A stretch of 64,000 nucleotides of DNA from Ischnura elegans (Eukaryota; Arthropoda; Insecta; Odonata; Coenagrionidae): positions 43,276,881 through 43,340,880 of the forward strand of contig NC_060252.1 in assembly GCF_921293095.1 (NCBI RefSeq), given 5' to 3'. The translations under genes and the position numbers were made by a program. The notes under the pieces were generated by a model. That model saw only the letters and a program-made list of their open reading frames with translations, had not been told where the DNA came from and did not search any database. Positions 1 to 51,614 of this stretch are shown piece after piece (position 1 is the first letter of the stretch; every line of letters begins with the position of its first letter).

Positions 1-1502
1 TGTATTATGACTTTTGTCGAGGACGCCGCGCCAACATCAGTATAAAATCTAGAAATGTCCGTAAATATTTGAAAGTAATGTAGTATTTTAATCAAAATAA
101 GTGTCATGCTGTTTATATTCAACGATAAAGGATCAATATTTGCAGATATCCTAAGTTTTGGTGTCGAAACCGCGTTTGTGCAGTGGAGGTATCGATACTT
201 AAAAAACACTTTTATCAATTTTGGTGCCTAAAATTTCTAATGTATACATTAATAACCAAAATAAATTTTTTTAAATAAATGTAAATAATAACTAGTAATT
301 AAAAAACACTCACACACAAACACACACTTCTAAAAAAAGTTAAGGAAAGTGCGTTCCAGCACTGCTTACTTTTCCATGACGTCACTGGTTTTAAGTCCAG
401 TTTCATCAACTTTAACAATGCTCTGAAGAATATCTGGTAATAATTGCAAACAATCACCTACACCTTAAAATATACAGACAATAAATTGAGGGCACCACGG
501 CCAAAATTCTAAAATTAAGTAGCTAAATGGTAAATCGTGATGGTCTGGAGTTAACACTCATTCAAATAAAATCCACTCATCTAGTAGCCCTAGTAGTACT
601 AGATGAGCAGATTTAATTCGGAGGGGGATATTGTTGGGTGTTTGTGCAGTGGAAATATCGAATTGAAACGCATCAAAAATCATACTTTACATCAAATCAG
701 CCGAATGATCCGTATACATAATGCTGAAAATTGAATTTATCGCTGATTAATGGTAAACACTATGAAATATATCAACATTTAAAAAAATGAAGAGTCAGAG
801 GGCATAGATGCAAATAGGATCTCCAAAGCAGATCATACTGTATGTAGTCGTCACAAGGGAAAATTTTCTGGGGGGCTAAAACTCACAAAGCCCACCCACC
901 CTACTGGCGACGTGCCCATCTACATAAACGCTTATTGTATTGAATCATTTTGTAAAATGCTGCCATCACATATGATAAGTCCTCCGATCACGATTAGGTG
1001 TTCCAATGCGGGAGGATGTTTTCTCCATGAGTACATTTCATAAGTCGGCAATTGAAATCTAATTCTACCCTAAATCAATGCATCCACTCTCTGCGAATAA
1101 ATGTGACAAGTAGTAAAACTCTTCACCTCCTTATGTAGGTACAGTGTGCATTTGTCTTTCTCTGGAGTTTTGGTCCAATATTGAAAGCGGGTTCATTCCA
1201 ATACCGATTTTTGGCAAATTTATGGATTTTAAACCAAAATATTAGAATGCATAAAAACAGAATTAGGTAGTTCCTGTAAAAATGCAAGTAAAAAGTGAAG
1301 GATTTCATTAAAAATGCTTAAGGTTTTGCCCTGTTTGATAAATTAGATAAAATTTGAAGCCCAAGAAGAAAGCATTTAATAAATATGCCGATATACCGTG
1401 AGCGGAAGTAATACTTTTCATTCTGGACCACGACTCAAGAGAAAGAAAAATGAATTTATGCAATCTTAAGAGTATTTTCGACGTATTCCATTGTTTCAAA
1501 AC
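1..1502. other. No gene seen: downstream flank of secreted-protein gene
   Basis: AT-rich sequence beyond the poly(A) signal, containing a short CA-rich tract near 309-330 and the 576-607 hairpin. The reading frames on the minus strand between 1308 and 1649 overlap the 3' UTR and look like chance. Confidence 0.5.
576..607. repeat. Short hairpin, 11-bp perfect stem
   Basis: CTCATCTAGTA (576-586) and its exact complement at 597-607 enclose a 10-base loop. It is kept in the second copy near 25911-25942. Function unknown; it may be a relic of a small foldback element. Confidence 0.45.
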
Positions 1503-1508
1503 TTTATT
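1503..1508 (-). terminator. Polyadenylation signal of secreted-protein gene copy 1
   Basis: AATAAA on the minus strand about 290 bases past the TAA at 1794, in AAGTAATAAAGTTTTG context. The same signal in copy 2 is at 26838-26843. The distance is plausible for a 3' UTR; the cleavage site itself cannot be seen. Confidence 0.5.
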
Positions 1509-1793
1509 ACTTATGCCACAGTTGGATGACAAGTTATTACACAGTGCATTCAAGAACCAACAAGAACAATAGCAACACATAGTATGTCGATTGATTGGTA
1601 TGGGATGTACAGACATGAATCCACAAGTATTGTTGATGTTGAACGGCAAAAAATCGAAAGCAAACTACTCCAGGCATGATTTTCTAAAGAAGCAGTCCAG
1701 GATGCTGAAGGCAATACTGCGGCAAAGCGGATTCACCAAAATCCAGAGCGTCTCCTCTTTCATGTATCAGTTTTAAATCAGTGGATAGTCCAG

Positions 1794-4700
1794 TTACGTG
1801 CAGGAAGAGTAATGTCCATCGTTGCAGCAGATGTACTGAGGGGTACTGGCCTTGAGGAACTCCCAGTTTCCGTCGCAGAGCTTGGAGAAGGCGGCGATCT
1901 GAGGAGTTTGAAGGTTGCAATCAGTTGATAAATAAAAGATACAGTTTCTGGCGTAATTCGGTGGAAATATTTATTTTTTAAAATATAACTAGCTATCCCA
2001 TGCGAAAATTTCGTGCTTTCACACCATCGGGAAATAAGTATTATATTATATTATTATATTCTCAAACCACCGGATACAACTCTTATTGGCCATTTTACAC
2101 CGGCGTGTTCAACAAATTCAACAAGTAAACGTACACAAACGACCATGCCCTGGACCGGGTAAACCTACCCAGGCGGGACTCGAACCCGCGACCTCTTGTT
2201 TGGCAGGCGAGAACGTTACCCCGCCGCCACCGAGGCCAGCAAATGGAATATGATAAGAATGGAATATGTTAAGGAAACCGTGTAATTGGGGTTTGAATAG
2301 AGAAGAAGGTGTGTCATAAAGTACTTTCTTCGTGCTTGTTTCCTTGCAAAAATATATAAAACATATGAATACAAAAAGGCAAGAGAGTCTGGTACCAGTA
2401 GGGACAATCAACACGTCATTGAATTATTGAATACTTTCAACACAATATTTTTATTTACTCGTGATACACGTTATCTTTAAGTTCATTACACACGTCTCTT
2501 TCAGAGTACGTTTAGCATTCTTCATACTTCTTTGATTTTATTTTTAATATTTTTGCCTGCTTGTGTTTTGTTTCTTTGGTTTAGTTATGGATTTAACGGG
2601 TTATTAAACTTTTTTTTTTAAGTTAAAAATAAAGAAATGTGTGGAGTCGATATACCTCGAGCGAGTAATCGACATGGAAAAATCGAAGCATTTAAGTTAA
2701 ATTAATGGGTAAATAGTGAAATTTGAGACTGAGATTGTATTTTTAGCCAGAAGCCAGGGATTCAACGTTTAAAATGATACCTCATTAGTCACTATATGTG
2801 AAGTATTAACGGAACATATGTACACGGAATGAAAGAAAAAGACCTTTATGCAATAATATAAAGGTTATTGAAAAGGACCTTTCTATATCCATACTTATTT
2901 ATTCCAACCCACCCAGGTTTCGGCGCATAATGCCATAAATAGATATAAGTGTGGAAACAGACAAGTCCTTTTCATTATGTTAAAAAACAGTTGATTAATG
3001 AAACTATAATAATTTAAGGAGCGAGTCAATCATTGAAACTAACAGACCAAGATTAAATTTATCTAAACGTTGCTTTCTCTGTATGGGGCCAAAGATATTT
3101 AATCTACTGCCCACTGAAATAAAAAAATTAATTCTTAATTAATAAAATGTTAAAACCCTCCAAAGACAGGTTTTTCTCCAGAATAATTGAACATTTATTT
3201 TTATGTAATTTCATTGGAACACTAATAATGTAATAGTCTCTGTGTTTATTTTGTGGCATAATTTTTGTTATTTTATGGTGGCTCAATTCTGGTATTTTGA
3301 CATTGGAGACCACCTTAGTTCCCTCTCCTTTTTCTATTAAAAATTGTACAATAAAAGATAATGGGAGCAAGTAAATTATTATATTATTATAAAAAGTTCG
3401 GAGATAAAAATCACTTTATGCACTTCAGTATAAAGTTGAGCTCTATGCTTCACATTATAAACCATTCTTATTTCGACCCATTTGGCTCATAAAACAAAGC
3501 ATTTGGGGAAAGATTTGAGGTTTTCCCGGTGGATAATACGTGAAAAATATTTCAAGTTGGCAACATTGACTTTATCTTAAACGTTTCGGCAGCTCGCTCT
3601 GCTTTTAACTTCAGGGAAGACATGTATCGAGTTCTGTGGAGTAGCCGCAATACATATCGTTGGGTGTCACTGTTGAGCGTGGGAAAATTGAGTTACTTTC
3701 AAAAGTATGTATTGGGGCCACTTCTCATACGTCGACACTCTTCACCCCTCAAAACAGTAGCGAAAAGAGCTGTCGAAATGTTGGAGATGGAGCCATTCAC
3801 ACGGCTGTCAACCTAAGAAGAATTTATGCTAATCAAGGTATTCCAGGTGAGCTGTGGGGGAGGCGTTCCATCCTCAGGACTCCACCCTCACTTCCCAACA
3901 ACCCTTTCCAATTATCCCTAAAGTCTAAATCACACGAGCATTTTATCCGTCCGTTTGAGGGATAGCTCCAACGATAGCTTTTCAGGGACCAAAGAAATGA
4001 TCGCTCCATCCATCATTTTAAGAATCACACGTCCATTCCCACCGTCCTTTTTCCATCGCTTTTTCCTGTCATTTTCTGTATTTATAAGTGTGTTTAAACT
4101 AAAAGCCGAACGTGTCGTTGCTATCGCTGTTAAAAGCTGTGCCAAGTGAACTGCATAGAGGAGGCCCAATTCTATACGGCAGAAGGTAGATTTCTGTTGC
4201 CTCCTCGGTCGCCATTTAATCGGTTTAAAAAAATGTCCGCGGCGCGGTGATGAGTGCGATTAGATCCACTTTTTTCCCAAATTATGCAGTGTAATGCGTG
4301 CTATTGCGAGGAATAGCATTGAAAAGTTATGCGTTTGATAGATCACGTCATTATCTATATTAATATCGGTTAAAACCGCTATTTATACCACATTTCCCCG
4401 TGAATCTCGGATCATTTTGTCCGTCAGCGACGCGAGTGGCGACCCATTTTGTAAACCCATTTGAATATGCGGTGGTTAACAACACGTTTAAAGGCCAACT
4501 TGAGGATCCTCTTTTGTAATACTCATAGGCTGTGCGTCCTGATTGACTGAAGGACGGTGCAAGCTGTGGTTTCAGCGATGTCTCGAGTGATGGAAAAAGG
4601 GATGGAAATCCCATCCCTCGAGCTATCGCGGAAAATGATCGCGAGAAACTGTCATTTTTCCCGCCATCGCTGGAGCGGTCGCTTAAGGTGTCCCTACAAA

Positions 4701-7345
4701 GGAATGGAAAAAATACGGCGTTGTTCAGTTTTAACCCTCACCTACTGCATCGAAAGACCGAAGGAATCTTCTACAAGCATGCATCGTGTTCCCATGTAGT
4801 CATCGTTTTGGCTCAAAGAAAAGCTAAGTGCAACGCTTCGGCGCAATCACTAAAGTGCACCGTAATTTCAGGTCTGAAGGAAGACCGTGTTCCTTGCCTT
4901 TAAGCAAATCCGGATGACTTACGCCTCCGAAATACCGTCATCGTCATAATGACGAAGCACAGAGTAAAGTTTGATCAGAATCACAACCTTGGAATTACCA
5001 AAATGCAAAAATGAACAAAGAAAGTCCCGCAATGACCAACTTTTACTCGGCAATGAATATTTTAACCTTTATCGTCGATGAGTGTCCGAGGGCAAAACCT
5101 GTTCAAGGGTAAAGGAGGTACTTAAATGTAAAGAGGCTTACTCGCTAGATATCTCACTAACAGGACACCTCTGTATTTTAGATTTTTTCTTTAAAATTGC
5201 CAAAAATTTATTTGAATTTTTTGCCTCACGTACGTCCTTCATTGCTCAAGTGATCTTATCGAAAATATCATATCTCTTCATCCTTATATCTCTTGTTCCT
5301 ATGAGGAATATTATTACCCTGGAGGTCTCTCTAGTCGGCCACAGTTACCCACCGCGCATTTTAACAAAAGCCAATAGTCCCGTCGCTGACGGAAGAGCGT
5401 TCTGAATTTCACGGGAAAATAATCATTTATTGAGCTGTGAATGGAGATTTATCTTATTGATAATATGATATATCAAATCCATAAATTTTCACTGATATTC
5501 GTCCTTATTTCAAAACTTATTTGCATTGGCGTCGATTGGTGTACGGGCTTCCGGGAGGTCGGAGGGGTATCGAATACCTTGAATGAGGGAGTTCAAGGGC
5601 CCTCCCCCGGAAAAAAATTAATCATGGAAATTGTGATTTTAAAGCAATTTTTACCCCATTTATATCCAATTTTATACCCCATCAGGAGATTTTTCGCCTT
5701 ATTCATAATAACCTCATTAAATTTTCTGGGCGACATCCCGACGCATCAAATATAAGGGGGATGAGCTCCCCACAGGATAGACGTCAATGATTCATTGCAA
5801 ATATTGAGAATAAATGGACCACTCTGTGCCCATCGCCGCACTGTGGACATTTTTGAAAACTGATTAACACGCTCTAAAGGGGCAACATGAATTAACTTCT
5901 GAGGGACGGACTGGAGCCTCGTCTTTGAAGTACACTTGACTTTGCCCTTACCTCTCCCATGTTAACATCCTTGTCGAGTAGACTGCAGGCCAATTCACCC
6001 ACTGTCTTGCCGTCGGGTCTGACGTAGTCCAGGTTTCCGCCATCGGTCATCAGGCCAATCTGGAACAGCGGGAATGTATGATTCATTTTACGCTGAAATT
6101 CCTCTAAACTTTCAACACCCTAAAGCCCGAGCAAAATGACTAAATGTGACATAAATTGATTAATTAAGAACTAGAGCACTTGATACAATACTCCTTCATT
6201 CACAGCCCAAACCATTCATCAACCATGAAATCGATTTCACTCGACTTACGATAGCTTTTAGCTCTCACCATAGAATTATTAACTTCCTTGCTACAAGCAA
6301 ATATTAAGAAACATTTTAGCATTTTTCAGCTAATGGCAAACCTAACCCGAGTTGCGCCATTAAAAACTGTGAACCAATACAAGCTCTTTTTTTTATTTCA
6401 ACCCAATATTTTTGCCAAGTAAAGTCATGTTAAGTTTTTGTGAACAAGGATTAAGGCTAAAGTTCCCTCGAATGAACTCAAACACATTTTGGATAGTGGC
6501 ACAGAGTCGCGAAAGGATTGACGAGTTTGCTATAATTTCATGGAAAAGTTAATTAAGTTATAGAATTCTCTGCGAGTTATTTTACGACTTTAAACCATTA
6601 TGCCATCAATATTGCTCAGTAAAAATAAACGGCTAGATAAGCAAGGCATCGCATATTTAGGAACCTCTTAACTTTTCATAGTTATTTTACATTTGCTAAG
6701 TCAAAAACTTACCCTTATACAGGCAAAATTTCGGAAGATTAGATTAAATCATTTATTCTCATTACTCATATTAATGTAAGACGAATCTTATATCCTTATA
6801 AGTCATTGGCTACATGATCTTTTGAAAATAAATGTATTGTAATTAATGCTAGAATAGAAATCGCACAATTAACCAAAGAATTCACTTACGCTCTGGGCGC
6901 ACATATCGGAGCAAGCCTTGTGCATATCATCTCCTTCGCAGCTGTCCACATGCTCATCCTCCTTGAGGTACATTCTTGAGGTCAGATCAGGCTGGCTGGG
7001 ATCTTCGGATGACCTCAAAAAGGCCGCACACTGACACTGGCCTTCGGCGCTATTTTAAAGGAGATAATCAAGAATGTAGTTAATTATTTTTGCAGCAATC
7101 ATTCGAAATTATCCAGCAAGCATTTTACTATGCTTATATCACACGATTTAGTGCCACCAAGGGTAATTTTGCTTTCCGTCTCTGTGTTCAGAAGAAGATT
7201 AATTGATCTATGCAAAAATTGATCTCGTCACCGATTTGTAGTTTGTTTTGGCCAAATCGTCGCTATATCAAACAAACAAATGCAGCGCTACTTACTTGGC
7301 ATAGTGGAGAACTGCCACAAGGAGAACGGCAAGGAATCCCTTCAT
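1794..7345 (-). CDS. Small secreted cysteine-rich protein, copy 1 (4 coding exons)
   Basis: Spliced minus-strand gene read by eye. Coding exons: 7345-7296 (ATG at 7345), 7049-6890, 6059-5952 and 1898-1794 (TAA). Each intron starts GTAAG(T/G) and ends AG, and the phases join into one 140-residue frame. Residues 1-19 form a signal peptide: Lys3, a hydrophobic L/V/A core, and an A-N-A cleavage site. The mature chain is acidic and has ten cysteines (22, 24, 54, 63, 67, 95, 114, 130, 131, 139), which would allow five disulfides, so it should be extracellular. The exon-4 acceptor (CTCCTCAG before 1898) is the phase-0 choice. A longer exon 4 starting near 1950, or an extra exon inside the 4-kb intron 3, is possible. 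A TTCTTTGTTCCAG acceptor ends at 7371, implying a further 5'-UTR exon upstream. I do not recognise the family and assign no function. Confidence 0.78.
2118..2238 (-). mobile_element. tRNA-Gly-derived SINE (copy 1)
   Basis: On the minus strand the first ~75 bases resemble a tRNA-Gly(GCC). There is a GGTGGC...GGGGTAACG A-box region, TTCTCGCCTGCCA across the anticodon (GCC), and a perfect B box GGTTCGAGTCC (complement of 2176-2186) inside an intact T arm (GCGGG/CCCGC). The anticodon and acceptor stems are mispaired and a non-tRNA body follows toward 2118, so this is a SINE head rather than a working tRNA. It lies in intron 3 of the secreted-protein gene. Confidence 0.75.
2239..5951. other. Intron 3 of secreted-protein gene copy 1: no further gene seen
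   Basis: Contains the SINE at its 3' end, an ATT-rich tract near 2039-2062 and a GC-richer stretch around 3600-4900. Several overlapping frames of 60-107 codons on both strands here resemble no protein I know. Their equal length in the second copy only reflects the duplication. Confidence 0.4.
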
Positions 7346-8329
7346 ACTGGAGGTTTATTTCAAACTGATTCTGGAACAAAGAATAACAGTTATCCACCCA
7401 AAATTACAAGTAACAAAAAATGATAAAAAATCCCGAAGGAAATCGAATATTACAGCTCATAAAGATTAAGAAACACATATGCAATAGGACATGAAAATTC
7501 ATTTCATAAATTCCACACTAATGCTTTTTTTCACGACAGTGGTTCTAGCAATACTATGCCATTATTCAGGTCTCAATAATAAACACCTTGATGATGAAAT
7601 AATATTGTCGAAAAAATGATCGGGAAGAATAGTTCCAGGTATTTTCGAAGTGAAAAGTGTTTTAAATAAAACGTTTAACAACAATTTAAAAATTCCGGGG
7701 TTTTAACGCTTTCTTATATTTGTTACACTTAACTTTCATCAGTCAATCACCTATCAAATGAAAGAGCAACTCAAACAGTTTTACATAAACACCGACAAAA
7801 GTTCAATGTGAGCACTATTTGTCACACCTCACCGCCCTAAAAATATATTTGCATAAATACCTTCTACCTCTTGCATTTTGGAGAATGAAAGCTGAAGTGA
7901 AATATCAACACCCGGGCAAAAATTTGGCAGGGCTCACGGTGAGCTAAAATCATCTAAAGCCGGTGAAAATCCAAAAAGATTTTGAGTTTGGAAACTGAGG
8001 CTTCAGATAAAAATGCACAATAAATCTGCAAGCTTACGGTGTGGTACCCGAATTTTATGTTGTGAGCGCACATTCACAATATTTATGACGTCCAATGAGC
8101 ACCGATTCTACTTAGAGGTCTTCTAAATTTTTCCGCAAAATTTATTTTACAGAATTTAAGAGATTTGAAGATACAAAAGTTATACAAAAAACCACTCATA
8201 TATGGGTAAAGTACATGTTGCTCTAATTAGTTTGAATTTTCCTCGAGAGAGGGGAGAAGGGTAACTAATCCTCTCTGATCTCCTCCCATGAAATTGTCCC
8301 GTTAAGTTACGTAGGATAGACTCTATAAT

Positions 8330-8640
8330 ATTTTATGAATCTAACACCAGTTGGAAGACCAAATGGATGGTTAAGGCAGAAACGCGGTGCTAAAGAATAA
8401 CAGAAAGAAAGGAACTGTGGAGAAACATACGCTAGAGTAGGAACCGGTGGATAAGTCATGTCATTTATGACAAAGCAATCACGTGAAAATATAATGGAGT
8501 GATAAAGCGAAGAAAAAGTCCTCCGAGGAAGACCTAGAGACAGATATCATGGGAAAGATGCAAAAGGACACAAGTACGAAGTACATCAGGGACCTGAAGG
8601 AACTAGCAGAGAAGGGGAGATATTGAAGGCTACATTATAC
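8330..8640 (+). pseudogene. Decayed LINE reverse-transcriptase C-terminus fragment
   Basis: Broken frames on the + strand keep the C-terminal signature of arthropod LINE polymerases: an arginine/tryptophan-rich piece ending WISHVI, then a basic stretch with K-R-R-K-S-P-P-R near 8500, where intact relatives have a G-R-P-R block. Stops and shifts are frequent. The second copy is at 33670-33980. Confidence 0.5.
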
Positions 8641-8999
8641 CAATCCCTGTGAATGAACCAGGTTTTGAATCCAGACTCTCACAAAGCAATCCAGTGCCCT
8701 GACCAGGAGCGGATTCAGGATCAAATATTGGCGGGGGTTCAAGGTCTGAGTCTGGGGAGTATGGCGTACCCCAAGGTCCTTAAAATATAAATTTCCATAA
8801 ACCGAAAATATTTTCTGGCTACGGCCTTGGATGAGAGTAGTTTAACCAGCCAACACCGCATAAAAATTCTTGAGATAGTTGAAAGGGAGGGGTAACTAAC
8901 TTGTTTATGCCATATGAGGAAATGGAATGCAAAGAAACATAACGATCGGCTTAAGTTTATCAAGAGCATTTTTTTGAGAATCACGTCAGCATAGGAGGC

Positions 9000-9200
9000 T
9001 TACACGAATAAGAAGGAGCCAATGAGAGAATATTTATGTAAAAGTTTAGACAAAGCTGGTTAAGAGACTTATCAGGAGTTATGGCCTTTACGTCGCAGAA
9101 ATGTGGACGCTGATGAAAGAATACGAGATAACAACGGAGGAATTAGAGATATGGGATTGGAGGAGAATTGATAATGCGAAGTGGAAAGTTTAATGGGAAG
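9000..9200 (+). pseudogene. Second decayed LINE RT fragment
   Basis: One + frame around 9076-9190 reads VAEMWTL...ELEIWDWRR...KW, the degenerate form of the E-x-W-T-L ... E-M-W-x-W-R-R motif found just before the C-terminus of many arthropod LINE polymerases. Stops lie on both sides. In an intact protein this piece would precede the fragment at 8330-8640, so these are two separate remnants. Copied at 34340-34540. Confidence 0.5.
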
Positions 9201-9313
9201 TGGTAGTGAAGGAAAAACGTCGGTTAAAACCGATTTTTCGAGCGATCGAGATTTAATCAAAATGAAAAGCTCGACTTTCCAACATCATCGTCATCATTAT
9301 TCAACGAGCCTAA

Positions 9314-9547
9314 AGGCCGTTTTACACGGTACACGGAATTGCGCAGTCTGACGTACGTGTGAAGGCGCAATCAAAATTGCGTCGTGTAAAGCGGCGAATT
9401 GCTAGAACACATGCGAGAATGCGTGGATGCGAGACGGCAAAATAGCCCCTGTTCTAATTTCGTTCATGCATTCGCGCAATTCCACGCCATTTTAGAAATT
9501 AATGCAGCTCTAACCTGCGCAATTCCGTGTACCGTGTAAAACAGCCT
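9314..9547. mobile_element. 234-bp MITE, Harbinger-like, TAA target duplication (copy 1)
   Basis: Terminal inverted repeats begin AGGCCGTTTTACACGGTACA and end with its complement (one mismatch, cAgcct) and extend about 34 bases. TAA flanks it on both sides (9311-9313, 9548-9550). The interior is non-coding. It lies against the 3' end of the LINE fragment at 9550-10017, whose frame stops in the right-hand TAA. Confidence 0.82.
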
Positions 9548-9549
9548 TA

Positions 9550-10017
9550 AGAATGGTTAGACGAAGCTCGCCATTCCACTCTCCTATACCCTAACTTTTT
9601 CGTAGCGACATATTTCCTCTCATTAACATCCTTGATAACCTGTCCAATGTAACTCATTCGGGGCCGTCCCTTGTCCTCCTTCCCTTCCATCTGTCCTTCA
9701 AAGATTGTCTTTATCAGGCCATTATACCTCAAAATATGACCAACTAAGTTTTCCCCGGCCCTAAGGCCCCGTCTTCTGCTTAAGGTTTTTAGGATAATTC
9801 TCTTTTCTCCCACTCTCCTTCGCACTTCCTCGTTACTTACACGGTCGATCCATCTCACCTTCATCATTCTTCGGTAGCACCACATTTCGAATGCTTCCAC
9901 TCCTGACCTCTCTGCTGCTGTCACTGTCCAAGCCTCGCTTCCATAGAGAAACATTCTCCATATATAGCATATGATGAATTGTTTTCTTACTTCTATGCTT
10001 GTATTCTCAGCAAAAAA
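9550..10017 (-). pseudogene. LINE reverse-transcriptase C-terminal fragment (copy 1)
   Basis: An uninterrupted minus-strand frame of about 155 codons. It has the typical end of an arthropod LINE polymerase: R-K-Q-F...Y-I-W, F-L-Y-G-S-E-A-W-T-V-T, F-E-M-W-C-Y-R-R-M-M-K-V-R-W, E-E-V-R-R-R, G-H-I-L-R-Y, I-F-E-G-Q-M-E-G-K, G-R-P-R-M-S-Y, then E-W-R-A-S-S. The fingers/palm part and the endonuclease are missing, so it is 5'-truncated. It is clearly younger than the fragments at 8330 and 9000, which have stops. Confidence 0.8.
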
Positions 10018-10600
10018 ATCGAAATTTGAACCGAAAGATCGATTAATCGAAAAAATAGACGGTTCTTTAAAAAACTGCTTTTACAAATACATGGTTATTA
10101 CTTAATCGAAAAAACACTAAAAATACACATTCGAGTTTTTTAAAAAATCTCCTTAGAATAAATGCTTACATTATTGGTAGATAAATTTACAAATGCTCCC
10201 ACATCAAAGTTTGGGGAACACCGCCTATAACCATTCGACTTGACTAAAAGTTTTGAGAAAGATCAACTGATTGAGGTGCTTTATTGGTGTAGAGGGCGTG
10301 ATTTCCAATCGGGTCTTTCACATGGGACGGATGACGTTATCATAGGCCGGTAGTGGTGCTGCTGAGATCAAACGAAATGGTCAAGATCGAACTCGAAAAA
10401 TCGAGTTTGAATCGATAATCGAAGATCAAGGCTTTCTCTATCTCGATTTCCTCGATCTTTGGCATTTAAAACTCGACTTTCGATTTTTATCGAGATCCAT
10501 TGTTCCATCGCTCGAAAACAAGGAAGACAGGCAACGAAGTTCTCGACGTGGTGGGTGATTAGAGGTATATTGTTGAGGAAATAGTCAATAATATACAAAA
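10018..10600. other. No gene seen: TCGA-rich spacer at the duplication edge
   Basis: AT-rich, with many ATCGA/TCGAT words at 10010-10090 and 10375-10515. These echo the palindromes of the adjoining satellite. The segment ends at the sharp breakpoint at 10600. Confidence 0.4.
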
Positions 10601-11874
10601 CGAGTCGATTGGGTGCTTGAATTCTTCAAGCGGGTAATTAGGAGGGTGGGAACATTGTTGTGTCACGTGTTGTCGAGCATTGTGTCCATAAGTGTTTAAA
10701 ATATTCAAAAATTTCCCTGCCGGTTTTTGAAAGGGTAAGGAACTTAATTGTTTACTTTTAAAATTATTTGTTATTTTCAATATGATATCATTTAACGGAT
10801 AGTTCATTATTTGAATAGGCTAAGTTTAGCACTGAGACATAATTGGAATAAGGTTTTTAAAATTTCAAGACACTGATGATTTTGTGGTTATTTTTCAACT
10901 CTTAAAGTCCAAAAGCGTTGTGATAAGCGAAACTTGAAAATGAAACGCAGATTCCTTAGGTAAATATATAAAGATATACCACTCGCAAAACATATGTCCA
11001 TAATGCAGTGTGTAAAATACTAAATTGTAACGATTCCCCAAATTTCTTTGGTACTAAAAAATAGTTATTCTCAAGATAGTCCAATTTGAAAAAAATAGCT
11101 TTGGCATATTTGCTATCATTATCGTATCGAATTATCAAGTATACTGACACGTGTATTTAAAATTCGCAATCCTATTCCAGTCTTCGATCATCAACCCTAA
11201 AATTCCTGGTCAACTAATTACGTGGATAGAAAATCCTGTATGTAATAACGATTCGATATATTTTAAGAAAAAGCATATTCAATATATATACATCGTGAGA
11301 CTACACGCAAAGCATATTTCCATTGGGCATTGTGAGGAAGACCAAGATGTACCCATTCACCAAATTTCATTGGTCCAACGGATACACTAATCAAGTTATG
11401 CCAATTTAAATATTTGCTAAAATAATCAAATCGATTTTTCAATTATACTGACATCTGTACTGTTAAATCCGCAATGCTATTGGTTTAACGTCCAGTCTAT
11501 GGGTATCTACTACATAATTCCTGGTCAACTATGTCCTTGGATGTAAAATCCTATATGTAATAGCAATTCGATATATTTTAAGAAAAAGTAAATTCGATTT
11601 ATATCGAACGTGAGACTATAAACAAAAAATACTTCCATTGGGCATTATGAGGAATACCAAGATGTACCCATTTACCAAATGTCATTGGTCCAACGTAAAT
11701 ACTAATCATGTTATGCCAATTCGCGTATTTGCTACAATTATCGAATCGATCTTTCGATAAAACTGCAATCTGCACTGTAATATCCGCAATGCCGTGGATT
11801 TTAATTGCAGTTAATAGAAAACTTCTCTATATTTCCTGGTCAACTATGTCCTTGGATGTAAAATCCTACATGTA

Positions 11875-16246: not shown

Positions 16247-16338
16247 CGAGTCGATTGGGCGCTTGAATTCATCAAGCGGGTAATTAGGGGGAGTGGAAAC
16301 ATAGTTGTGTCACATATTTTCGAGTCATGTGCCCATAA

Positions 16339-21531: not shown

Positions 21532-21799
21532 ATCCCTAGTAAACTATGTCCTTGAATGTTAAATCCTACATGTTATAGCAATTCGATATATTTTAAGAAA
21601 AAGTAGATTCGATATATATCGAACGTGAGACTGAATACAAAACATACTACCATAGAATATCGTGAGGAATACCAAGATGTACCTGTTTACCAAGTTTCAT
21701 TGGTCCAACGTACACACTTATCAAGTTATGCCAATTTGCGTATTTGCTATACTAATCGAATCGTACTTTAGACACTGCTGACATCTGTACTATAAAATC

Positions 21800-23134: not shown

Positions 23135-23782
23135 CGAGTCGATTGGGCGCTTGAATTCATCAAGCGGGTAATTAGGGGGGGTGGAAACATAGTTGTGTCA
23201 CATATTTTCAAGTCATGTGCCCATAAGTGGTTTAATATTCAAAAATTTCCCCGCCGTTTTTTGAAAGGGTAAGGAACTAAATTTTTCACTGTTAGAAATA
23301 TTTGTTATTTTCAATGTGATTTTATTTGACGGATAATTGATTCTTTGATCCATTAAGTTAACCATTGACACATAATCGGAATAAGGTTTTAAAAATTTCA
23401 AGAGAGTGTTGATTATGTGGTTATTTTTCAACTGTTTAAGTTCATAAGCATTGTGATAAGCCACTCTTGAAAATACAACGCAGATTCTTTAGATAAATAT
23501 ATAAAGATATTCCACTTGCAAAACGAATATCCATAATGCAGTTTGTAAAATACTGAATTGTAACGATTCCTCTAATTTCTTTGGTCTTAAAAAATAGTTA
23601 TTCTCAAGATATTCCATTTTGCAAAAAAGATTTGGCATATTTGATATCATAATCGTATCGAATTATCAAGTATACTGACACGTGCATTGAAAATACGCAA
23701 TCCGATTGATTTACCTTCTAATCTTTGATCATCAACACTAAAATTCCTGGTCGACTATGTACGTGCATGCAAAATCCTATGT
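23135..23782 (+). repeat. Composite satellite unit 3, truncated head
   Basis: Follows the unit-2 head closely and shows its uninterrupted state (cataagtggtttaatattca near 23221). It stops inside the first monomer at aaaatcctatgt, where unrelated sequence begins. Confidence 0.85.
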
Positions 23783-25335: not shown

Positions 25336-26837
25336 ACATATTATGACTTTTGTCGAGGACGCCGCGCCAACATCAGTATAAAATCTAGAAATGTCCGTAA
25401 ATGTTTGAAAGTAATGTAGTATTTTAATCAAAATGAGTGTCATGCTGTTTATATTCAACGATAAAGGATCAATATTTGCAGATATCCTAAGTTTTGGTGT
25501 CGAAACCGCGTTTGTGCAGTGGAGGTATCGATACTTAAAAAAAACTTTTATCAATTTTGGTGCCTAAAATTTCTAATGTATACATTAATAACCCAAATAA
25601 ATTTTTTTAAATAAATGTAAATAATAACTAGTAATTAAAAAAACACTCACACACAAACACACACTTCTAAAAAAGTTAAGGAAAGTGCGTTCCAGCACTG
25701 CTTACTTTTCCATGACGTCACTGGTTTTAAGTCCAGTTTCATCAACTTTAACAATGCTCTGAAGAATATCTGGTAATAATTGCAAACAATCATCTACACC
25801 TTAAAATATACAGACAATAAATTGAGTGCACCACGGCCAAAATTCTAAAATTAAGTAGCTAAATGGTAAATCGTGATGGTCTGGAGTTAACGCTCATTCA
25901 AATAAAATCCACTCATCTAGTAGCCCTAGTAGTACTAGATGAGCAGATTTAATTCGGAGGGGGATATTGTTGGGTGTTTGTGCAGTGGAAATATCGAATT
26001 GAAACGCATCAAACATCATACTTTACATCAAATCAGCCGAATGATCCGTATACATAATGCTGAAAATTGAATTTATCGCTGATTAATGGTAAACACTATG
26101 AAATATATCAACATTTAAAAAAATGAAGAGTCAGAGGGCATAGATGCAAATAGGATCTCCAAAGCAGATCATACTGTATGTAGTCGTCACAAGGGAAAAT
26201 TTTCTGGGTGGCTAAAACTCACAAAGCCCACCCACCCTACTGGCGACGTGCCCATCTACATAAACGCTTATTGTAATGAATCATTTTGTAAAATGCTGCC
26301 ATCACATACGATAAGTCCTCCGATCACGATTAGGTGTTCCAATGCGGGAGGATGTTTTCTCCATGAGTACATTTCATAAGTAGGCAATTGAAATCTAATT
26401 CTACCCTAAATCAATGCATCCACTCTCTGCGAATAAATGTGACAAGTAGTAAAACTCTTCACCTCCTTATGTAGGTACAGTGTGCATTTGTCTTTCTCTG
26501 GAGTTTTGGTCCAATATTGAAAGCGGGTTCATTCCAATACCGATTTTCGGCAAATTTATGGATTTTAAACCAAAATATTAGAATGCATAAAACAGAATTA
26601 GGTAGTTCCTGTAAAAATGCAAGTAAAAAGTAAAGGATTTCATTAAAAATGCTTAAGGTTTTGCCCTGTTTGATAAATTAGATAAAATTTGAAGCCCAAG
26701 AAGAAAGCATTTAATAAATATGCCGATATACCGTGAGCGGAAGTAATACTTTTCATTCTGGACCACGACTCAAGAGAAAGAAAAATGAATTTATGCAATC
26801 TTAAGAGTATTTTCGACGTATTCCATTGTTTCAAAAC

Positions 26838-26843
26838 TTTATT
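26838..26843 (-). terminator. Polyadenylation signal of secreted-protein gene copy 2
   Basis: AATAAA on the minus strand in the same context and at the same distance from the stop codon (27129) as in copy 1. Confidence 0.48.
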
Positions 26844-27128
26844 ACTTATGCCACAGTTGGATGACAAGTTATTACACAGTGCATTCAAGAACCAACAAGA
26901 ACAATAGCAACACATAGTATGTCGATTGATTGGTATGGGATGTACAGACATGAATCCACAAGTATTGTTGATGTTGAACGGCAAAAAATCGAAAGCAAAC
27001 TACTCCAGGCATGATTTTCTAAAGAAGCAGTCCAGGATGCTGAAGGCAATACTGCGGCAAAGCGGATTCACCAAAATCCAGAGCGTCTCCTCTTTCATGT
27101 ATCAGTTTTAAATCAGTGGATAGTCCAG

Positions 27129-30100
27129 TTACGTGCAGGAAGAGTAATGTCCATCGTTGCAGCAGATGTACTGAGGGGTACTGGCCTTGAGGAACTCCCA
27201 GTTTCCGTCGCAGAGCTTGGAGAAGGCGGCGATCTGAGGAGTTTGAAGGTTGCAATCAGTTGATAAATAAAAGATACAGTTTCTGGCGTAATTCGGTGGA
27301 AATATTTATTTTTTAAAATATAACTAGCTATCCCATGCGAAAATTTCGTGCTTTCACACCATCGGGAAATAAGTATTATATTATATTATTATATTCTCAA
27401 ACCACCGGATACAACTCTTATTGGCCATTTTACACCGGCGTGTTCAACAAATTCAACAAGTAAACGTACACAAACGACCATGCCCTGGACCGGGTAAACC
27501 TACCCAGGCGGGACTCGAACCCGCGACCTCTTGTTTGGCAGGCGAGAACGTTACCCCGCCGCCACCGAGGCCAGCAAATGGAATATGATAAGAATGGAAT
27601 ATGTTAAGGAAACCGTGTAATTGGGGTTTGAATAGAGAAGAAGGTGTGTCATAAAGTACTTTCTTCGTGCTTGTTTCCTTGCAAAAATATATAAAACATA
27701 TGAATACAAAAAGGCAAGAGAGTCTGGTACCAGTAGGGACAATCAACACGTCATTGAATTATTGAATACTTTCAACACAATATTTTTATTTACTCGTGAT
27801 ACACGTTATCTTTAAGTTCATTACACACGTCTCTTTCAGAGTACGTTTAGCATTCTTCATACTTCTTTGATTTTATTTTTAATATTTTTGCCTGCTTGTG
27901 TTTTGTTTCTTTGGTTTAGTTATGGATTTAACGGGTTATTAAACTTTTTTTTTGAAGTTAAAAATAAAGAAATGTGTGGAGTCGATATACCTCGAGCGAG
28001 TAATCGACATGGAAAAATCGAAGCATTTAAGTTAAATTAATGGGTAAATAGTGAAATTTGAGACTGAGATTGTATTTTTAGCCAGAAGCCAGGGATTCAA
28101 CGTTTAAAATGATACCTCATTAGTCACTATATGTGAAGTATTAACGGAACATATGTACACGGAATGAAAGAAAAAGACCTTTATGCAATAATATAAAGGT
28201 TATTGAAAAGGACTTTTCTGTATCCATATTTATTTATTTTAACCCACCCAGGTTTCGGCGCATAATGCCATAAATAGATATAAGTGTGGAAACAGACAAG
28301 TCCTTTTCATTATGTTAAAAAACAGTTGATTAATGAAACTATAATAATTTAAGGAGCGAGTCAATCATTGAAACTAACAGACCAAGATTAAATTTATCTA
28401 AACGTTGCTTTCTCTGTATGGGGCCAAAGATATTTAATCTACTGCCCACTGAAATAAAAAAATTAATTCTTAATTAATAAAATGTTAAAACCCTCCAAAG
28501 ACAGGTTTTTCTCCAGAATAATTGAACATTTATTTTTATGTAATTTCATTGGAACACTAATAATGTAATAGTCTCTGTGTTTATTTTGTGGCATAATTTT
28601 TGTTATTTTATGGTGGCTGAATTCTGGTATTTTGACATTGGAGACCACCTTAGTTCCCTCTCCTTTTTCTATTAAAAATTGTACAATAAAAGATAATGGG
28701 AGCAAGTAAATTATTATATTATTATAAAAAGTTCGGAGATAAAAATCACTTTATGCACTTCAGTATAAAGTTGAGCTCTATGCTTCACATTATAAACCAT
28801 TCTTATTTCGACCCATTTGGCTCATAAAACAAAGCATTTGGGGAAAGATTTGAGGTTTTCCCGGTGGATAATACGTGAAAAATATTTCAAGTTGGCAACA
28901 TTGACTTTATCTTAAACGTTTCGGCAGCTCGCTCTGCTTTTAACTTCAGGGAAGACATGTATCGAGTTCTGTGGAGTAGCCGCAATACATATCGTTGGGT
29001 GTCACTGTTGAGCGTGGGAAAATTGAGTTACTTTCAAAAGTATGTATTGGGGCCACTTCCCATACGTCGACACTCTTCACCCCTCAAAACAGTAGCGAAA
29101 AGAGCTGTCGAAATGTTGGAGATGGAGCCATTCACACGGCTGTCAACCTAAGAAGAATTTATGCTAATCAAGGTATTCCAGGTGAGCTGTGGGGGAGGCG
29201 TTCCATCCTCAGGACTCCACCCTCACTTCCCAACAACCCTTTCCAATTATCCCTAAAGTCTAAATCACACGATCATTTTATCCGTCCGTTTGAGGGATAG
29301 CTCCAACGATAGCTTTTCAGGGACCAAAGAAATGATCGCTCCATCCATCATTTTAAGAATCACACGTCCATTCCCACCGTCCTTTTTCCATCGCTTTTTC
29401 CTGTCATTTTCTGTATTTATAAGTGTCTTTAAACTAAAAGCCGAACGTGTCGTTGCTATCGCTGTTAAAAGCTGTGCCAAGTGAACTGCATAGAGGAGGC
29501 CCAATTCTATCCGGCAGAAGGTAGATTTCTGTTGCCTCCTCGGTCGCCATTTAATCGGTTTAAAAAAATGTCCGCGGCGCGGTGATGAGTGCGATTAGTT
29601 CCACTTTTTTCCCAAATTATGATGTGTAATGCGTGCTATTGCGAGGAATAGCATTGAAAAGTTATGCGTTTGATAGATCACGTCATTATCTATATTAATA
29701 TCGGTTAAAACCGCTATTTATACCACATTTCCCCGTGAATCTCGGATCATTTTGTCCGTCAGCGACGCGAGTGGCGACCCATTTTGTAAACCCATTTGAA
29801 TATGCGGTGGTTAACAACACGTTTAAAGGCCAACTTGAGGATCCTCTTTTGTAATACTCATAGGCTGTGCGTCCTGATTGACTGAAGGACGGTGCAAGCT
29901 GTGGTTTCAGCGATGTCTCGAGTGATGGAAAAAGGGATGGAAATCCCATCCCTCGAGCTATCGCGGAAAATGATCGCGAGAAACTGTCATTTTTCCCGCC
30001 ATCGCTGGAGCGGTCGCTTAAGGTGTCCCTACAAAGGAATGGAAAAAATACGGCGTTGTTCAGTTTTAACCCTCACCTACTGCATCGAAAGACCGAAGGA

Positions 30101-32681
30101 ATCTTCTACAAGCATGCATCGTGTTCCCATGTAGTCATCGTTTTGGCTCAAAGAAAAGCTAAGTGCAACGCTTCGGCGCAATCACTAAAGTGCACCGTAA
30201 TTTCAGGTCTGAAGGAAGACCGTGTTCCTTGCCTTTAAGCAAATCCGGATGACTTACGCCTCCGAAATACCGTCATCGTCATAATGACGAAGCACAGAGT
30301 AAAGTTTGATCAGAATCACAACCTTGGAATTACCAAAATGCAAAAATGAACAAAGAAAGTCCCGCAATGACCAACTTTTACTCGGCAATGAATATTTTAA
30401 CCTTTATCGTCGATGAGTGTCCGAGGGCAAAACCTGTTCAAGGGTAAAGGAGGTACTTAAATGTAAAGAGGCTTACTCGCTAGATATCTCACTAACAGGA
30501 CACCTCTGTATTTTAGATTTTTTCTTTAAAATTGCCAAAAATTTATTTGAATTTTTTGCCTCACGTACGTCCTTCATTGCTCAAGTGATCTTATCGAAAA
30601 TATCATATCTCTTCATCCTTATATCTCTTGTTCCTATGAGGAATATTATTACCCTGGAGGTCTCTCTAGTCGGCCACAGTTACCCACCGCGCATTTTAAC
30701 AAAAGCCAATAGTCCCGTCGCTGACGGAAGAGCGTTCTGAATTTCACGGGAAAATAATCATTTATTGAGCTGTGAATGGAGATTTATCTTATTGATAATG
30801 TGATATATCAAATCCATAAATTTTCACTGATATTCGTCCTTATTTCAAAACTTATTTGCATTGGCGTCGATTGGTGTACGGGCTTCCGGGAGGTCGGAGG
30901 GGTATCGAATACCTTGAATGAGGGAGTTCAAGGGCCCTCCCCCGGAAAAAAATTAATCATGGAAATTGTGATTTTAAAGCAATTTTTACCCCATTTATAT
31001 CCAATTTAATACCCCATCAGGAGATTTTTCGCCTTATTCATAATAACCTCATTAAATTTTCTGGGCGACATATCCCGACGCATCAAATATAAGGGGGATG
31101 AGCTCCCCACAGGATAGACGTCAATGATTCATTGCAAATATTGAGAATAAATGGACCACTCTGTGCCCATCGCCGCACTGTGGACATTTTTGAAAACTGA
31201 TTAACACGCTCTAAAGGGGCAACATGAATTAACTTCTGAGGGACGGACTGGAGCCTCGTCTTTGAAGTACACTTGACTTTGCCCTTACCTCTCCCCTGTT
31301 AACATCCTTGTCGAGTAGACTGCAGGCCAATTCACCCACTGTCTTGCCGTCGGGTCTGACGTAGTCCAGGTTTCCGCCATCGGTCATCAGGCCAATCTGG
31401 AACAGCGGGAATGTATGATTTATTTTACGCTGAAATTCCTCTAAACTTTCAACACCCTAAAGCCCGAGCAAAATGACTAAATGTGACATAAATTGATTAA
31501 TTAAGAACTAGAGCACTTGATACAATACTCCTTCATTCACAGCCCAAACCATTCATCATCCATGAAATCGATTTCACTCGACTTACGATAGCTTTTAGCT
31601 CTCACCATAGAATTATTAACTTCCTTGCTACAAGCAAATATTAAGAAACATTTTAGCATTTTTCAGCTAATGGCAAACCTAACCCGAGTTGCGCCATTAA
31701 AAACTGTGAACCAATACAAGCTCTTTTTTTTATTTCAACCCAATATTTTTGCCAAGTAAAGTCATGTTAAGTTTTGTGAACAAGGATTAAGGCTAAAGTT
31801 CCCTCGAATGAACTCAAACACATTTTGGATAGTGGCACAGATTCGCGAAAGGATTGACGAGTTTGCTATAATTTCATGGAAAAGTTAATTAAGTTATAGA
31901 ATTCTCTGCGAGTTATTTTACGACTTTAAACCATTATGCCATCAATATTGCTCAGCAAAAATAAACGGCTAGACAAGCAAGGCATCGCATATTTAGGAAC
32001 CTCTTAACTTATCATAGTTATTTTACATTTGCTAAGTCAAAAACTTACCCTTATACAGGCAAAATTTCGGAAGATTAGATTAAATCATTTATTCTCATTA
32101 CTCATATTAATGTAAGACGAATCTTATATCCTTATAAGGCATTGGCTACACGATGTTTTGAAAATAAATGTATTGTAATTAATGCTAGAATAGAAATCGC
32201 ACAATTAACCAAAGAATTCACTTACGCTCTGGGCGCACATATCGGAGCAAGCCTTGTGCATATCATCTCCTTCGCAGCTGTCCACATGCTCATCCTCCTT
32301 GAGGTACATTCTTGAGGTCAGATCAGGCTGGCTGGGATCTTCGGATGACCTCAAAAAGGTCGCACACTGACACTGGCCTTCGGCGCTATTTTAAAGGAGA
32401 TAATCAAGAATGTAGTTAATTATTTTTGCAGCAATCATTCGAAATTATCCAGCAAGCATTTTACTATGCTTATATCACACGATTTAGTGCCACCAAGGGT
32501 AATTTTGCTTTCCGTCTCTGTGTTCAGAAGAAGATTAATTGATCTATGCAAAAATTGATCTCGTCACCGATTTGTAGTTTGTTTTGGCCAAATCGTCGCT
32601 ATATCAAACAAACAAATGCAGCGCTACTTACTTGGCATAGTGGAGAACTGCCACAAGGAGAACGGCAAGGAATCCCTTCAT
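27129..32681 (-). CDS. Small secreted cysteine-rich protein, copy 2 (4 coding exons)
   Basis: Second copy of the 140-residue secreted-protein gene, inside the duplicated segment. Coding exons: 32681-32632, 32385-32226, 31396-31289 and 27233-27129. All splice sites, the signal peptide, all ten cysteines and the stop are preserved. Against copy 1 the coding sequence differs at two bases, both replacements: Ala26 to Thr (GCC to ACC, exon 2) and Met104 to Arg (ATG to AGG, two codons before the exon-3 donor). No silent difference was seen. The intact frame argues that both copies are usable, but two changes are too few to infer selection. The same SINE lies in intron 3 of both copies, so the duplication came after that insertion. 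Confidence 0.76.
27453..27573 (-). mobile_element. tRNA-Gly-derived SINE (copy 2)
   Basis: Same element as at 2118-2238, carried by the segmental duplication. The tRNA-like head and B box are unchanged. Confidence 0.75.
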
Positions 32682-33669
32682 ACTGGAGGTTTATTTCAAA
32701 CTGATTCTGGAACAAAGAATAACAGTTATCCACCCAAAATTACAAGTAACAAAAAATGATAAAAAATCCCGAAGGAAATCGAATATTACAGCTCATAAAG
32801 ATTAAGAAACACATATGCACAATAGGACATGAAAATTCATTTCATAAATTCCACACTAATGCTTTTTTTCACGACAGTGGTTCTAGCAATACTATGCCAT
32901 TATTCAGGTCTCAATAATAAGTACCTTGATGATGAAATAATATTGTCGAAAAAATGATCGGGAAGAATAGTTCCAGGTATTTTCGAAGTGAAAAGTGTTT
33001 TAAATAAAACGTTTAACAACAATTTAAAAATTCCGGGGTTTTAACGCTTTCTTATATTTATTACACTAAACTTTCATCAGTCAATCACCTATCAAATGAA
33101 AGAGCAACTCAAACAGTTTTACATAAAAACCGACAAAAGTTCAATGTGAGCACTATTTGTCACACCTCACCGCCCTAAAAATATATTTGCATAAATACCT
33201 TCTACCTCTTGCATTTTGGAGAATGAAAGCTGAAGTGAAATATCAACACCCGAGCAAAAATTTGGCAGGGCTCACGGTGAGCTAAAATCATCTAAAGCCG
33301 GTGAAAATCCAAAAAGATTTTGAGTTTGGAAACTGAGGCTTCAGATAAAAATGCACAATAAATCTGCAAGCTTACGGTGTGGTACCCGAATTTTATGTTG
33401 TGAGCGCAAATTCACAATATTTATGACGTCCAATGAGCACCGATTCTACTTAGAGGTCTTCTAAATTTTTCCGCAAAATTTATTTTACAGAATTTAAGAG
33501 ATTTGAAGATACAAAAGTTATACAAAAAACCACTCATATATGGGTAAAGTACATGTTGCTCTAATTAGTTTGAATTTTCCTCGAGAGAGGGGAGAAGGGT
33601 AACTAATCCTCTCTGATCTCCTCCCTTGAATTAGTCCCGTTAAGTTACGTAGGATAGACTTTATAATAT

Positions 33670-34540
33670 TTTATGAATCTAACACCAGTTGGAAGACCAA
33701 ATGGATGGTTAAGGCAGAAACGCGGTGCTAAAGAATAACAGAAAGAAGGGAACTGTGGAGAAACATACGCTAGAGTAGGAACCGGTGGATAAGTCATGTC
33801 ATTTATGACAAAGCAATCACGTGAAAAATATAATGGAGTGATAAAGCGAAGAAAAAGTCCTCCGAGGAAGACCTAGAGACAGATATCATGGGAAAGATGC
33901 GAAAGGACACAAGTACGAAGTACATCAGGGACCTGAAGGAACCAGCAGAGAAGGGGAGATATTGAAGGCTACATTATACCAATCCCTGTGAATGAACCAG
34001 GTTTTGAATCCAGACTCTCACAAAGCAATCCAGTGCCCTGACCAGGAGCGGATTCAGGATCAAATATTGGCGAGGGTTCAAGGTCTGAGTCTGGGGAGTA
34101 TGGCGTACCCCAAGGTCCTTAAAATATAAATTTCCATAAACCGAAAATATTTTCTGGCTACGGCCTTGGATGAGAGTATTTTAACCAGCCAACACCGCAT
34201 TAAAATTCTTGAGATAGTTGAAAGGGAGGGGTAACTAACTTGTTTATGCCATATGAGGAAATGGAATGCAAAGAAACATTACGATCGGCTTAAGTTTATC
34301 AAGAGCATGTTTTTGAGAATCACGTCAGCATAGGAGGCTTACACGAATAAGAAGGAGCCAATGAGAGAATATTTATGTAAAAGTTTAGACAAAGCTGGTT
34401 AAGAGACTGATCAGGAGTTATGGCCTTTACGTCGCAGAAATGTGGACGCTGATGAAAGAATACGAGTTAACAACGGAGGAATTAGAGATATGGGATTGGA
34501 GGAGAATTGATAATGCGAAGTGGAAAGTTTAATGGGAAGT
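33670..34540 (+). pseudogene. Decayed LINE RT fragments, copy 2
   Basis: Duplicates of the two remnants at 8330-8640 and 9000-9200, with the same stops. Confidence 0.45.
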
Positions 34541-34652
34541 GGTAGTGAAGGAAAAACGTCGGTTAAAACCGATTTTTCGATCGATCGAGATTTAATCAAA
34601 ATGAAAAGCTCGACTTTCCAACATCATCGTCATCATTATTCAACGAGCCTAA

Positions 34653-34886
34653 AGGCCGTTTTACACGGTACACGGAATTGCGCAGTCTGACGTACGTGTG
34701 AAGGCGCAATCAAAATTGCGTCGTGTAAAGCGGCGAATTGCTAGAACACATGCGAGAATGCGTGGATGCGAGACGGCAAAATAGCCCCTGTTCTAATTTC
34801 GTTCATGCATTCGCGCAATTCCACGCCATTTTAGAAATTAATGCAGCTCTAACCTGCGCAATTCCGTGTACCGTGTAAAACGGCCT
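34653..34886. mobile_element. 234-bp MITE, Harbinger-like, TAA target duplication (copy 2)
   Basis: Same insertion as 9314-9547, inherited through the duplication (TAA at 34650-34652 and 34887-34889). Here both outermost repeats match perfectly (cGgcct); the copy-1 base is the derived one. Confidence 0.82.
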
Positions 34887-34888
34887 TA

Positions 34889-35356
34889 AGAATGGTTAGA
34901 CGAAGCTCGCCATTCCACTCTCCTATACCCTAACTTTTTCGTAGCGACATATTTCCTCTCATTAACATCCTTGATAACCTGTCCAATGTAACTCATTCGG
35001 GGCCGTCCCTTGTCCTCCTTCCCTTCCATCTGTCCTTCAAAGATTGTCTTTATCAGGCCATTATACCTCAAAATATGGCCAACTAAGTTTTCCCCGGCCC
35101 TAAGGCCCCGTCTTCTGCTTAAGGTTTTTAGGATAATTCTCTTTTCTCCCACTCTCCTTCGCACTTCCTCGTTACTTACACGGTCGATCCATCTCACCTT
35201 CATCATTCTTCGGTAGCACCACATTTCGAATGCTTCCACTCCTGACCTCTCTGCTGCTGTCACTGTCCAAGCCTCGCTTCCATAGAGAAACATTCTCCAT
35301 ATATAGCATCTGATGAATTGTTTTCTTACTTCTATGCTTGTATTCTCAGCAAAAAA
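34889..35356 (-). pseudogene. LINE reverse-transcriptase C-terminal fragment (copy 2)
   Basis: Duplicate of 9550-10017 with an equally open frame. One visible replacement restores an Arg codon before C-Y-I-W where copy 1 has Ile. Confidence 0.8.
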
Positions 35357-35942
35357 AAATCGAAATTTGAACCGAAAGATCGATTAATCGAAAAAATAGA
35401 CGGTTCTTTAAAAAACTGCTTTTACAAATACATGGTTATTACTTAATCGAAAAAACACTAAAAATACACATTCGAGTTTTAAAAAAAATCTCCTTAGAAT
35501 AAATGCTTACATTATTGGTAGATAAATTTACAAATGCTCCCACATCAAAGTTTGGGGAACACCGCCTATAACCATTCGACTTGACTAAAAGTTTTGAGAA
35601 AGATCAACTGATTGAGGTGCTTTATTGGTGTAGAGGGCGTGATTTCCAATCGGGTCTTTCACATGGGACGGATGACGTTATCATAGGCCGGTAGTGGTGC
35701 TGCTGAGATCAAACGAAATGGTCAAGATCGAACTCGAAAAATCGAGTTTGAATCGATAATCGAAGATCAAGGCTTTCTCTATCTCGATTTCCTCGATCTT
35801 TGGCATTTTTAAACTCGACTTTCGATTTTTATCGAGATCCATTGTTCCATCGCTCGAAAACAAGGAAGACAGGCAACGAAGTTCTCGACGTGGTGGGTGA
35901 TTAGAGGTATATTGTTGAGGAAATAGTCAATAATATACAAAA

Positions 35943-51606: not shown

Positions 51607-51614
51607 CATTTTGG

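Follow-up and report, generated by a model that had tools for sequence, protein, structure and literature searches.

We examined a 64,000-nucleotide stretch of the 1.72-Gb Ischnura elegans genome (hereafter the window; C7:43276881-43340880, C7 being contig NC_060252.1), in which a block of native DNA, here called U, recurs in tandem with satellite-like transposable elements at its seams. Positions are window coordinates, negative numbers lying left of the window; other contigs and places carry our own labels. We added 260 kb of neighbouring sequence to the window and compared the resulting 324 kb with itself, a check proposed in a preliminary description of the window, and found further satellite and block copies to its left. 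The locus reads L-U_A-Sat(8.25 kb)-U_B-Sat(13.19 kb)-U_C-R, where L and R are native flanks, Sat is the satellite and U_A, U_B and U_C are three tandem copies of a ~12.15-kb unit; a fourth copy, Z, keeps the arrangement L-U-R without satellite (Table 1).

The preliminary description had 1-10600 recurring near 25336-35942, and self-BLAST aligns 3-10600 with 25339-35942 at 99.236% (69 mismatches and 9 gap openings), a repeat that, at this identity over 10,607 columns, is not attributable to chance. Homology between U_B and U_C runs from -3800, which pairs with 21532, to 10600 (14,414 columns, 99.34%); base 1 is merely the window edge, not the left limit of the repeat. The tandem duplication of ~25.3 kb described earlier is thus real as a tandem repeat, but it comprises three tandem 12.15-kb copies plus a fourth, with block copies spaced 20.4 kb apart on the left versus 25.3 kb on the right. 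A copy of 10601-25335 had also been predicted immediately left of the window; satellite does lie there with the block beyond it, but it is shorter than predicted, spanning 8,251 bp (-9795..-1545).

Both flanks place U in its native setting. The left flank is common to Z and U_A (37 differences/1,311 bp), and the right flank to Z and U_C (110/5,810 and 83/5,712 differences). Outer edges L/U_A and U_C/R are uninterrupted, as in Z, and carry no satellite. The insertion-free U/R border is identical in Z and U_C, and a single base differs between Z and U_A at the L/U border.

Edges and composition of the seams

The right seam (10601-23787) consists of two elements, E1 and E2, followed by 653 bp of a third, E3, with CGAGTCG starting each satellite unit at 10601, 16247 and 23135, as the preliminary description had it. 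Full ends meet at the E1/E2 and E2/E3 joints (TTAA/CGAGTCG at 16246/16247 and 23134/23135). The left seam holds the same train without 15355-18049 and without a 1.9-kb insertion, and the remaining 319-bp length gap between left and right seams probably corresponds to one 315-bp repeat. Since the 1,922-bp insertion is present in the right seam only, it is later than the split of the seams.

The two edges of each seam differ in kind. At the U/Sat edge (10600/10601), ATATACAAAA is followed by the exact terminus CGAGTCG, and the same edge recurs at -9796/-9795, U_A and U_B being identical here; at the right edge of U_C (35942/35943), ATATACAAAA is followed instead by TATAGAGGG, so that the earlier account of this edge was accurate. 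At the Sat/U edge (23787/23788), the truncated element CCTATGTATTAT is joined to AGAAAGT, the left edge of U. This edge of U_C is identical to that of U_B at -1545/-1544, with a microhomology of 0-2 bp (AG).

Table 1. Block copies, native flank and seam elements in window coordinates
Feature	Position	Strand	Remarks
Copy Z of U	-76210..-64046		33 kb upstream of U_A, without satellite
U_A	-30844..-9796		Lengthened by 2.1-kb and 6.8-kb inserts
U_B, middle copy	-1544..10600	+	Start lies left of window
U_C, right copy	23788..35942	+	
R, native right flank	35943..53492	+	Also right of Z, with gaps
E1, non-autonomous rolling-circle element	10601..16246	-	3′ end CGACTCG at 10601, 5′ end TTAAGC at 16246
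E1 3′-terminal hairpin GCTTGAA..TTCAAGC	10601..10660	-	14 nt from end; -5.7 kcal/mol, z -3.15
DNA transposon inside E1, 1,319 bp	11874..13192		Ends CCCAGC.. / ..TAGTTGGG; TA duplicated; identical in both seams
E1 internal 315-bp repeats	11201..15009	-	In parts 11201-11873 and 13193-15009
E2, second tandem element	16247..23134	-	Both ends present; other 5′-end subtype TTAACG; two later insertions
996-bp insertion in E2	16343..17338		Inverted ends GGGTGCGGTCC / GGACCGCACCC
E2 internal 315-bp repeats	18054..19609	-	
1,922-bp insertion in E2	19610..21531		Flanked by 8-bp ATCCCTAG duplication; right seam only
E3, truncated element	23135..23787	-	Only 653 bp at CGAGTCG end

A dispersed rolling-circle element

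The satellite consists of dispersed transposable elements with fixed ends. A 600-bp satellite probe gave 40 full-length matches on 12 contigs (the best 40 of 2,254 candidates, two of them being the place in the window and the left seam), and we read 12 further heads: C2, C4a, C3, C1a, C4b and C1b, with ~150-200 bp outside each end, and L003-L008. Similarity ends exactly at CGAGTCG in 10/12 heads, with non-element flank beyond, while C3 and L003 abut the tail of another element. AA precedes CGAGTCG in 11/12, and TAGCTTAA stands at 13 of the 14 far ends read, three of which pass directly into the next head. An exact 26-base terminal pattern that requires the AA matches the genome 1,212 times (623 + 589) and the control 0 times. 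Among 100 places listed, all on C1, 49/52 same-strand neighbours less than 6 kb apart are spaced in 315-bp steps, which indicates that the 315-bp repeats vary in number within head-to-tail elements, and opposite-strand neighbours at such distances are absent. Full ends also meet in joints at C3, C1a, L003, L051, L054 and L055. A classical satellite is ruled out, as the 315-bp repeats sit inside elements with fixed ends.

With CGAGTCG as the precise end of a dispersed element, the U/Sat edge is an exact transposon end at a site that is empty in Z and U_C. Given the array spacing of 3.3-5.4 kb, we estimate that a random break would fall on an exact element end about once in 4,000. As element ends mostly abut AA, a 2-bp AA duplication and no duplication look alike. 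Two individual copies are unusual in their surroundings. The element at C3 (L039, L040; C3:91250654-91254747) has the same 23 bp, TTTGCCATTATATATTAGCTTAA, on both sides, which is another element's end; such repeats are unexpected in a transposon believed not to duplicate its target. The far end of C1b (L045, C1:64972954-64973303) continues into the apparent tail of another element, inverted.

The satellite element is a rolling-circle transposon of unsettled subtype, as indicated by its terminal hairpin, its head-to-tail arrays and a 3′ end common to Rep/Helicase elements. Its minus-strand end reads GCTTGAA-GAA-TTCAAGC plus 14 more bases, and E1, E2 and E3 each have a 7-bp-stem hairpin 13-14 nt from the 3′ end (z -3.15, -4.89 and -4.85, respectively). 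A 1,491-aa Rep/Helicase frame at C1:60604224 matches PF14214 (Helitron_like_N) and PF05970 (PIF1-type helicase). A place bearing the terminal pattern lies downstream of it, with 3.8 kb between the helicase match and the shared 3′ end; frame and 3′ end probably belong to one element, the intervening stretch having been read in part. A 203-bp probe from this 3′ end (best 40 of 904 candidates scored) found its own place, C1:60610300, then C5:80627118 and C8:100469212 (both 90%) and C1:157178380 (81%); in all four cases a Rep match on the same strand starts 5.9-6.3 kb before the place. Of the 40 rows, 25 are shorter matches covering the final ~80 bp at 92-95%. These shared ends suggest that this Rep/Helicase family supplies the autonomous partners of the satellite elements, themselves non-autonomous. 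Longer Rep/Helicase frames of ~1,790-1,925 aa, forming a second class, occur on C3, C4, C5, C7, C13 and other contigs, with several copies of equal score, and some are clustered (C5:75920280, 75959279 and 76037654, 39.0 and 78.4 kb apart).

Subtype features point in several directions. The canonical Helitron (Helitron1) ends, 5′ TC and 3′ CTRR, are not present, the ends being TTAAGC.. (or TTAACG..) and ..CGACTCG. The TT target of Helentrons and HINEs, AA on the other strand, is found at the 11/12 heads noted above. Helentrons and HINEs have subterminal inverted repeats of 12-15 bp within a few nt of the 5′ end; in neither E1 nor E2 do the first 40 nt share an inverted word of 6 or more with the last 120 nt, and 8-nt inverted words pair only from ~150-180 nt inside the 5′ end. 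An endonuclease C-terminal to the helicase is not fused in the one partner frame whose end was read, which stops 849 bp into L057, just past the helicase. Helitron2-type asymmetric terminal inverted repeats were not found in E1 or E2.

Origin of the triplication

The U/Sat edge looks like a normal insertion edge of the element, whereas the Sat/U edge does not: there the element breaks off after 653 bp and no more than two bases (AG) are shared, so that the latter is an illegitimate join. The preliminary description took 10600/10601 as the duplication junction, which holds for one edge of the seam, the illegitimate edge being 23787/23788. Its placement of the junction at a repeat boundary can be put more strongly, since CGAGTCG is a transposon's exact terminus. 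It further suggested recombination involving the satellite; the element does occupy the seams, but recombination between satellites flanking U would leave satellite outside, and the clean outer edges rule this out. Because these edges lack satellite, transposon insertion in one partner fits the geometry better. Read-through capture of U by a rolling-circle element is also ruled out, as U still lies between native L and R and the U + Sat unit has no element 5′ end on either side.

We favour, at roughly an even chance of its being correct, a tandem triplication of native U seamed by a concatemer of the non-autonomous rolling-circle element, through insertion, then misjoining, then unequal exchange. 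The ancestral state would be L-U-R, still seen at Z. An element concatemer would have inserted into one chromatid or homolog at ACAAAA/TATAG, where U meets R; the exact 3′ end is found there. Through end joining or microhomology, a point inside the third element may then have become attached to the left edge of U in the insertion-free partner, giving L-U-Sat-U-R with outer edges free of satellite; the basis for this step is the truncated-element/U edge together with the empty site in Z and U_C. Unequal exchange between U copies would have produced the triplication, as suggested by the identical edges of both seams. The seams would have diverged later, by a 2.7-kb deletion in the left and the 1.9-kb insertion in the right, and a tract of ~5.2 kb appears to have been recently homogenised by conversion or exchange. 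The four U copies and the shared L and R flanks count for this model.

A single step could give the same product. A rolling-circle transposon with incomplete insertion may itself duplicate DNA beside its target: its 3′ end would join the U/R border, the other end would be lost and the failed end repaired onto the sister chromatid 12.15 kb away, with concatemers then homogenising the seams. Of the two edges, one alone is a genuine transposon end, the other being truncated and illegitimate, and the target site is empty in U_C and Z; aberrant transposition of maize Ac likewise yields direct duplications (PMC3744419). We consider this route possible but rather unlikely, both as a mechanism and for this locus. 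Its product equals that of the two-step model, making the two indistinguishable from one assembly, and local duplication is not the usual outcome of insertion, since 5/5 other insertion flanks (two of 1,500 bases and three of 199, one search scoring the best 40 of 6,134) showed no second local copy among the candidates scored.

Classic duplications arose by Bar-like unequal crossover between insertions. Here, an insertion at the right edge of U in one homolog would have recombined with one at the left edge in the other, which accounts for outer edges without the element. This model would require two same-orientation insertions 12 kb apart, however, and the end at the left edge should be natural, yet it is truncated 653 bp into the element; we regard it as improbable.

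Divergence among copies bears on the history of the locus. U_B and U_C differ at 69 of 12,142 sites (0.57%), U_A and U_B at 132 of 12,037 (1.10%), and U_A and U_C by 1.14%, with 24 sites private to U_B, 35 to U_C and 49 to U_A across 12 kb. Divergence from Z is 1.0-1.3% in U, 1.5-1.9% in R and 2.8% in L (Z vs. U_A). Between the two seams, the initial 4,754 bp hold 1 difference and the adjoining 459 bp of U none; a rate of 1/5,213 bp vs. 69/12,142 (P = 6e-10, Fisher's exact test) indicates that the seam starts were homogenised or exchanged more recently than U diverged. The exchange was local, given 10 differing sites in the final 2,256 bp of the seams and a 4% difference between the E2 arrays.

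Unequal distances among the U copies also speak against a circular intermediate, in which a chromosome bearing the insertion would have released a circle of U plus truncated Sat, and this circle, singly or as a dimer, would have integrated by homology into an L-U-R without the insertion. Such a circle would yield L-U-Sat-U(-Sat-U)-R with clean outer edges and possibly three copies at once, and circular intermediates have been proposed for human segmental duplications (PMC7450558); with no direct trace of a circle, we hold this route to be very improbable. An assembly artefact, either alleles of a two-unit locus strung into three or a haplotypic duplication, is likewise unlikely. The U_B-U_C difference could be allelic in size, and the near-identical 5.2-kb seam tract could mislead an assembler. 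However, U_B is bordered by satellite left and right and is set apart from U_A and U_C by private differences over 12 kb, the seams differ by the 2.7-kb deletion and by the 1.9-kb insertion with its own target duplication, and the contig spans 118 Mb, with no N within the 324 kb.

Several observations weigh against the favoured history of the triplication and the element family behind it. No intermediate L-U-Sat-R haplotype was seen in the one assembly used, and a microhomology of at most 2 bp does not fix the joining pathway of the second edge. The U copies are mosaic (informative sites ZA/BC 50, ZB/AC 8, ZC/AB 2), which, with flanks more diverged than U, blurs the order of events. The E2 arrays of the two seams are 96% alike vs. 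99.6-99.98% on either side, unexplained by a simple history. As for the element, one head of 12 (L006) is preceded by CG instead of AA, and the C1b far end, 1 of 14, lacks TAGCTTAA. Three near-full-length matches to the 203-bp probe (C7:91159213, C5:126010289 and C10:75298973; 73-76%) have no Rep/Helicase frame listed nearby, and most listed Rep/Helicase frames have no such 3′ end among the 40 matches listed (the best 40 of 904 candidates). The satellite element's 5′ end was not found in 901 bp upstream of one Rep/Helicase frame, so that end-sharing is shown for the 3′ end only.

Other features of the block copies concern individual members. Z and U_A share a 117-column segment not in U_B or U_C, and U_B and U_C a 106-column segment not in Z or U_A (near 27842 and 28750, copy C coordinates), a pattern that agrees with the ZA/BC grouping of point differences. 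U_A alone carries insertions at -23857..-21795 (2.1 kb), with a 12-bp flanking duplication GGGAAAATAATC, and at -18428..-11605 (6.8 kb). Near the window, a genome-wide search with U gave only U_A among the matches listed (best 37 of 30,504 candidates scored, a search unsuited to counting copies elsewhere). Of the 14 listed window frames with a length of 120 aa or more, the 10 scanned, 3 lying within U, gave no Pfam match at 0.01; two of the remaining four are copies of scanned frames, and split exons would escape such a scan. The retroelement-like frames resemble those of an animal genome, Pfam giving no match. Amplification of U as a gene under selection is thus unsupported by the frames scanned.

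Relation to known systems

Transposons at duplication seams are known, usually as recombined repeat pairs. Central repeats and tandem copies have been described before in rolling-circle elements (PMC4067079, PMC7492417, PMC12628747, PMC5148889), including HINE/DINE-1-type non-autonomous Helentrons with central tandem repeats (PMC4067079; PMC7492417). Like these, the satellite element is non-coding and dispersed, with central tandem repeats, a 3′ palindrome, a TT target and tandem copies; unlike them, it has no subterminal inverted repeats that we found near its 5′ end, and the endonuclease is not fused in one partner frame. Tandem Helitron arrays attributed to rolling-circle amplification (Xiong et al. 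2016, via PMC12628747) are likewise head-to-tail, but they consist of truncated copies with multiple 5′ and single 3′ ends, whereas here full ends meet.

Two systems link transposons to tandem duplication. In poplar, a tandem KCS gene array has been linked to canonical Helitrons (2026; PMC13253262), with a rolling-circle element beside each tandem copy, as here, proposed as the cause of the array; the poplar gene is proposed to be carried by a canonical CTAG Helitron, whereas U is external to the element and still has its native flanks. Alternative transposition of maize Ac makes tandem direct duplications (PMC3744419) and likewise places a transposon with exact ends at the junction, but it involves 8-bp target duplications and two nearby elements, whereas the present locus combines an exact end with a truncated one. 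Titles and abstract openings in the open-licence literature gave no rolling-circle concatemer seam with one exact and one truncated end, which is weak evidence of novelty.

Because the ancestral arrangement (Z, and the U/R border of U_C) is kept beside the rearranged one, each edge at this locus can be read. If confirmed, the triplication would connect the insertion of Helitron-type elements with the tandem amplification of neighbouring DNA unrelated to them, and would bear on the origin of dispersed satellite-like DNA and of tandem gene arrays.

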